This document shows, in pieces, positions 59,580 through 59,667 of a DNA stretch of 64,000 bases. Within the stretch, counting starts at the first letter, position 1, and every line of letters starts with the position of its first letter. The notes under the pieces were generated by a model. It was given only the letters and a program-made list of their open reading frames with translations, was not told the DNA's origin and made no database searches. The DNA is from a virus. Position numbers and translations under genes: made by a program. The stretch is taken from positions 47,157 to 111,156 of IMG/VR virus record IMGVR_UViG_3300044946_000428, one strand, 5' to 3'.

Positions 59580-59667
59580 TAGACCCGGCGGGACTCGAAC
59601 CCGCGACCTGCCACTCAATCACGGGAGCTACTCGTGGCGGCCGCTCTGCCTGCTGAGCTACGGACCC
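59580..59667 (-). tRNA. tRNA-like RNA with a 22-nt anticodon loop
   Basis: Read on the minus strand from 59667: acceptor GGGTCCG, TA, D arm GCTC-AGCAGGCA-GAGC, G26, anticodon stem GCCGC/GTGGC, variable AGGTC, T arm GCGGG-TTCGAGT-CCCGC, acceptor CGGGTCT, A73. All invariant tRNA positions are present (T8, A14, GG18-19, TTC54-56, A58). The anticodon loop is 22 nt instead of 7 and can fold as CACG-loop-CGTG. Pair 3-70 is G-T and base 73 is A, the alanine identity elements. CCA is not encoded. It could be a tRNA mimic, a Y-RNA relative or a tRNA with an inserted hairpin. Confidence 0.65.

Follow-up and report, generated by a model that had tools for sequence, protein, structure and literature searches.

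The locus considered here raises the question of whether a phage gene can keep the form of a tRNA without its anticodon and, if so, what role the RNA might have. The window, i.e. the whole 64,000-nucleotide stretch analysed, has a GC content of 69% and forms the right-hand part of a virus record of 111,156 bases; its source is an actinobacterial phage.

Cloverleaf of the tRNA-like element

A first-pass annotation had placed at 59580-59667 the gene of a tRNA-like RNA that lacks a normal anticodon, and this was borne out. The coordinates are right, and the element, designated TLS1, is on the minus strand with the 5′ G1 at 59667 and A73 at 59580. In cmscan it matches the Rfam tRNA model RF00005 (47.1 bits, E 1e-7 in 10 kb) over its full length (positions 1-71 of 71). 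The acceptor, D, anticodon and T stems are all paired, and the anticodon loop has 22 nt. After the whole element, its parts are given in 5′ to 3′ order.

59580..59667, minus strand: TLS1, whole tRNA-like element (Rfam tRNA 47.1 bits, E 1e-7)
59661..59667, minus strand: acceptor 5′ strand GGGUCCG, partner 59581-59587, 7 of 7 pairs including G1-U72, G3-U70 and U4-G69; followed by UA
59643..59658, minus strand: D arm GCUC-AGCAGGCA-GAGC; G26 lies between it and the anticodon stem
59637..59641, minus strand: anticodon stem 5′ strand GCCGC, 5 of 5 pairs (one G-U) with 59610-59614
59615..59636, minus strand: anticodon loop CACGAGUAGCUCCCGUGAUUGA, 22 nt
59610..59614, minus strand: anticodon stem 3′ strand GUGGC
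59605..59609, minus strand: variable loop AGGUC; the identical 5-nt loop is found in the Arthrobacter phage Raphaella and many members of the class described below
59588..59604, minus strand: T arm GCGGG-UUCGAGU-CCCGC
59580..59587, minus strand: acceptor 3′ strand CGGGUCU and discriminator A73; CCA not encoded

The proposal that every tRNA hallmark except the loop is present applies to the stems, which form a cloverleaf over the full Rfam model, but not to the 3′ end, where A73 is followed by CGC and not by an encoded CCA. The acceptor is fully paired, but pairs 1, 3 and 4 are wobbles. TLS1 lacks the normal 7-nt loop that would hold U33 and an anticodon. The parts that define the tRNA fold are kept, and the 22-nt loop cannot present a normal anticodon.

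The hairpin envisaged inside the loop (CACG/CGUG) can form as a 4-bp helix at the loop edge but is not above chance (p 0.24; p 0.76 for any 4-bp helix). An alternative 9-bp arm, GGCCGCCAC/GUGGC-A-GGUC, absorbs the variable loop and has a free energy of -32.9 kcal/mol versus -29.2 kcal/mol for the canonical arm with the inner hairpin, and TLS1 as a whole folds no better than shuffled sequences (z -0.17). The predicted tRNA fold rests on sequence and comparison, and the canonical anticodon arm in particular is backed by comparison, not by energy.

Other assignments were rejected. The tRNA-Arg(ACG) or class II tRNA suggested by ARAGORN is reached only if the anticodon stem is mismatched and the variable arm long, and the same program detects no tmRNA within the window. 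Archaeal intron-bearing tRNAs resemble TLS1 in having a long insert in the anticodon loop. However, bacteria are not known to have a bulge-helix-bulge splicing endonuclease, and excision would leave no obvious 7-nt loop with an anticodon. No canonical tRNA was found in the 111-kb phage record, and the phage genome contains no stretch of 10 nt or more complementary to the 22-nt loop, as sought for an antisense target. Exact matching of 3′ end patterns gave no hits in the viral or cellular collections.

Expanded-loop elements in other phages

The closest relatives of TLS1 are in about ten Arthrobacter phages, with one element each. Raphaella, Eileen and ChuckDuck were obtained by blastn of annotated phages, and MidnightRain, Faja, Seahorse, Isolde, Phrank15 and Tiff81 were added by a search starting from Raphaella. 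The elements are annotated as tRNA-Gly (ccc)/(tcc) or tRNA-OTHER, and are located near the right genome end between a DNA-binding or hypothetical gene and small genes, which include an HNH endonuclease in most records viewed. They are like TLS1 in the D and T arms, the AGGUC-type variable loop, a loop that is not 7 nt and a tandem-wobble acceptor, GGGUCCG (or GGAUCCG)/CGGGUCC, with the adjacent wobbles G3-U70 and U4-G69 common to TLS1 and most of them. Among 238 tRNA-like genes compared, the GGGUCCG/CGGGUC acceptor occurs only in TLS1 and the Arthrobacter elements. Identity to TLS1 is about 74% (E 1e-4), but unrelated tRNAs score similarly in blastn, and kinship is for this reason likely rather than proven.

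The first-pass annotation had looked to homologues with a normal 7-nt loop as evidence against the element. The loops of the relatives are instead UAUCCCCCAUGA, UAUCCCCAUGA, CAUCCCCCCCAUAA, CAUCCACCAUAG and CUUUGG; sorted by size, their lengths are 6, 11, 12, 12 and 14 nt. In the anticodon stem, CUCCG/CGGAG gives way to CACCG/CGGUG and, in TLS1, to GCCGC/GUGGC with no pair broken, i.e. the body is kept and the stem covaries while the loop varies in length and sequence. The Arthrobacter elements differ from TLS1 in their shorter loops (6-14 nt) and in having U73, and two of them carry A3-U70.

An expanded-loop class was defined by intact acceptor, D and T arms, a 5-bp anticodon stem at the canonical register, a 5-nt variable loop and an anticodon loop other than 7 nt, and TLS1 has every one of these features. 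Phage contigs were scanned for tRNA D and T arms spaced too far apart; this pattern search and two further scans yielded at least 92 distinct matches with a paired acceptor and without a normal 7-nt-loop anticodon arm. Among the 92 matches listed, 15 have a perfect 5/5 anticodon stem at the canonical register, while off-register counts are 0-3. Shuffled inserts gave 0.79 perfect stems on average and did not exceed 6 in any of 2000 trials. In cellular genomes a similar pattern retrieved mainly intron-bearing tRNAs of DPANN archaea, which serve as a positive control. The expectation that such an RNA would be new was too narrow, as similar elements are common in phage contigs.

Several phage matches have conserved inserts common to different bodies. 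Inserts observed on unrelated tRNA-like bodies include GCAUUUGCG(U)AUU in contigs L070, L043 and L088, GAYAUGCUU..AGAGG in L128 and L039, CCCUCAnGGUGAAGG in L031 and L082, and GAAUAG with a covarying hairpin (GACG loop) in L173 and L176. The TLS1 insert contains no significant hairpin, and its relatives are not close enough for the insert to be compared.

Family A, the best documented of these groups, includes sequences from phiC31, Vash, Lilbooboo, Samora, RemusLoopin, Sebastisaurus, Heather and four contigs, and shows strong covariation across Streptomyces phages. In an alignment of 11 sequences, 96% of cells pair and both sides have changed in 10 of 23 pairs; the covariation score was reached by none of 500 shuffles, and slid structures score near zero. 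The phiC31 member is unannotated.

L246:1502-1588 (NC_001978.3 31424-31510), between gp13 and gp14: phiC31 family A element

The 1999 phiC31 genome paper reportedly mentions a tRNA-like gene. Like TLS1, the phiC31 element and its family have a tRNA body in which the anticodon loop is replaced, but the family A insert is conserved and structured (CCCGGGA, a hairpin and UGCA) whereas no such insert is seen in TLS1. The hairpin loops GAAA, GCAA, GUAA and UUCG interchange. phiBT1 has the same body as phiC31 in the same place with a different anticodon arm, CCCCCGACGUUCGAGGGGG (L247:1003-1076), and AbbeyMikolon carries this arm on another body (L248:1989-2065). Because body and arm are exchanged in this way, the predicted anticodon arm behaves as a module. 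In the family A inserts compared (L246, L249-L253, L053, L068, L174 and L178), the 6-nt palindrome CCCGGG is replaced in some members by the palindrome UCCGGA, as would be expected of a dimerisation site.

Candidate roles of TLS1

A second, weaker tRNA-like element and a gene with a possible promoter lie upstream of TLS1.

59676..59771, minus strand: TLS2, weaker tRNA-like element 8 nt upstream of TLS1
59814..60302, minus strand: repressor-like gene upstream of TLS2 and TLS1; C-terminus resembles mycobacteriophage ribbon-helix-helix repressors
60340..60369, minus strand: promoter-like site TTGACG-N18-TACATT upstream of the repressor-like gene (consensus match only)

TLS2 combines a GGCGACU/AGUCGCC helix and a Ser-like T arm, GAGGGUUCGAAUCCCUU, with a large, hairpin-rich arm at the position of the anticodon arm. 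Its fold z-score is only -0.89, it has no Rfam tRNA match, and a search for relatives found none. The product of the repressor-like gene matches the Arib1 repressor (tblastn, 59% over 48 aa, E 1e-7) and has no Pfam match above the cut-off. The promoter-like pattern was found once versus 0.1 expected from shuffles. Relatives sought through the genes neighbouring TLS1 were not found in viral contigs by that search.

The best explanation, to which we give an even chance of being correct, is that TLS1 may be a non-decoding tRNA mimic, a natural tRNA scaffold whose anticodon arm has been turned to another role; it is probably a stable regulatory RNA. Transcription would start at the promoter-like site (60369-60340) and run through the upstream repressor-like gene into TLS1, and host RNase P would trim the 5′ end and host tRNA nucleases the 3′ end. 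The tRNA shape would shield the RNA from decay, and the replaced anticodon arm would carry the activity, through either RNA pairing or protein binding. As a guess, G-rich Shine-Dalgarno sequences could be pairing targets for the pyrimidine-rich UCCC of TLS1 and for the UCCCC(C) that most relatives carry. TLS1 would be a natural counterpart of the engineered tRNA scaffold (PMC3753655), where a recombinant RNA inserted into the anticodon arm undergoes tRNA processing and shares the protection of a tRNA; the plan is the same, but that scaffold is man-made. In favour of a mimic, the Arthrobacter loops vary while the anticodon stem keeps its pairing by compensatory changes. The Rfam score, the acceptor common to TLS1 and the Arthrobacter elements, the excess of perfect anticodon stems in the class, the covariation and arm exchange around family A and the lack of a canonical tRNA in the record also speak for it. 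Against it, TLS1 is a single sequence and the covariation comes from relatives at about 74% identity, a level of similarity at which unrelated tRNAs score alike; its fold energy is ordinary and favours a different arm; and the unconserved Arthrobacter loop fits a functionless loop as well as a fast-changing one. Somewhat more tentatively, phages broadly may use natural tRNA scaffolds, i.e. families of RNAs whose tRNA body serves processing and stability and in which an interchangeable functional module replaces the anticodon, with phiC31 included and TLS1 a member.

To the left of the window, the same phage carries two paralogous compact cloverleaves at L025:334-405 and L025:757-829 (record 16,334 and 16,757). 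Their T stems are UCGGG/CCCGA and GUGGG/CCCAC, their fold z-scores are -1.5 and -3.9, and blastn of these left-arm elements gave no match. Each is 5′ of a small gene with the Shine-Dalgarno sequence GAAGGAGG, and the anticodon loops contain ACCUCC or CCUCC, an anti-Shine-Dalgarno sequence. They are possible cis-acting translation switches.

TLS1 might instead be a decaying tRNA gene, perhaps for tRNA-Ala, in which a loop insertion ended decoding and the body has not yet eroded. Phages gain and lose tRNAs quickly, the 5′ acceptor strand of TLS1 also occurs in the normal tRNA-Ala(GGC) of contig L023, and both the ordinary fold energy and the unconserved loop of the relatives are compatible with decay. 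However, all four stems of TLS1 are intact, compensatory change has preserved the anticodon stem of the relatives despite the variation of their loops, and sister families have conserved, covarying inserts. Decay is unlikely on balance but retains an appreciable probability, since a conserved insert is not seen in TLS1 taken by itself.

A role as decoy or evader of host anticodon-loop nucleases, with the body attracting the nuclease or sensors and the loop resisting or titrating them, is less probable again. In phage tRNAs, changes in the anticodon loop are predicted to allow escape from tRNA-targeting nucleases (PMC10264068), and the loops seen here are diverse and fast-changing in the manner of an arms race. 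However, the published idea requires a functional decoding tRNA and TLS1 cannot decode, this reading names neither nuclease nor target, and the conserved family A inserts would fit a fixed partner better.

G3-U70 and A73, on which the alanine identity put forward for the RNA was based, are both present in TLS1, and alanyl-tRNA synthetase does not read the anticodon. An RNA charged with alanine through these elements and used outside the ribosome is nevertheless very unlikely. G3-U70 has become A3-U70 in MidnightRain and Faja, position 73 is U in all relatives, CCA is encoded neither in TLS1 nor in the Arthrobacter elements, and only 4 of 74 members of the wider class, among the matches listed, have G3-U70. 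In TLS1 itself the adjoining G1-U72 wobble also argues against this reading. Predicted alanine identity is thus not a conserved property, and alanine acceptance would be at most private to TLS1; charging as the purpose of the RNA was not upheld.

Further genes of the window bear on the remaining readings.

56776-58446, strand opposite to TLS1: Ro60 (TROVE) gene (PF05731, E 1.2e-14)
18540-18567: probable attP, tRNA/tmRNA 3′ end UACGGGUUCAAAUCCCGUCUCCACC, about 130 bases before the tyrosine integrase gene
18697-20109: tyrosine integrase gene (PF00589)

The Ro60/Y-RNA neighbourhood is real, with two YrlA RNAs (39 and 32 bits) upstream of the Ro60 gene and TLS1 about 1.1 kb past it. The protein encoded at 58517-58945 has a 43% relative upstream of YrlA genes in contig L003. 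A tRNA-Gln called by ARAGORN at 56602-56673 is false and overlaps the second YrlA RNA. YrlA (RF02553) is, like TLS1, an RNA with tRNA-like arms from a Ro60 phage locus, but it is permuted, with the T arm before the D arm, whereas TLS1 has the normal order. TLS1 could be a YrlA-related client or partner of the phage Ro60 if the TLS2 T arm and, after it, the TLS1 D arm (59643-59702) copied the permuted order. The Ro60 gene and the two YrlA genes are 1.1-3.2 kb away, and in a related phage an insert-bearing tRNA-like element of 112 nt (L005:10776-10887) lies 1.1 kb downstream of Ro60. However, a YrlA parse across TLS2 and TLS1 was rejected as noise (16.8 bits, E 0.53, without the conserved outer stem), among 20 viral loci that carry a Ro60 relative, 19 have no tRNA-like insert element nearby, and the two Arthrobacter genomes examined, Eileen and Isolde, have the element but no annotated Ro60. 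Loci with Ro60 relatives other than L005 contain only YrlA RNAs, with an ordinary tRNA array in addition in L017. Blastn of the L005 element gave no match; the same record contains another expanded-loop element (L255). The Ro60 link is probably incidental; a functional connection was not supported, although the L005 element gives it some weight, and the client role is highly improbable.

Phages with tyrosine integrases use tRNA 3′ halves as attP (PMC10865867), but retention of a host tRNA 3′ half as attachment site was rejected for TLS1 as almost certainly wrong, since the cloverleaf is complete, no viral contig matches its 3′ half exactly, the integrase is not adjacent, and a better candidate at 18540 adjoins it.

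Possible roles of phage tRNA-like RNAs beyond decoding

Phage tRNAs are usually explained by codon supply or by replacement of tRNAs cut by host defences. Both explanations need a decoding tRNA, so widespread non-decoding tRNA-like RNAs in phages would require another one. The phage-tRNA defence hypothesis (PMC10264068) and tRNA-dependent lysogeny (PMC10865867) likewise concern decoding tRNAs. A review of non-canonical tRNAs (PMC7609411) leaves phages unmentioned, the largest anticodon loop in the passages concerned is 8 nt, and no description of the expanded-loop phage class was found in openly licensed papers. The comparisons suggest that the expanded-loop elements are a little-noticed, widespread set with roles other than decoding. 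The question is directly testable in phiC31, a tractable phage with a widely used integrase and an unannotated member, and the 'tRNA-Gly' and 'tRNA-OTHER' labels in phage records may conceal regulatory RNAs.
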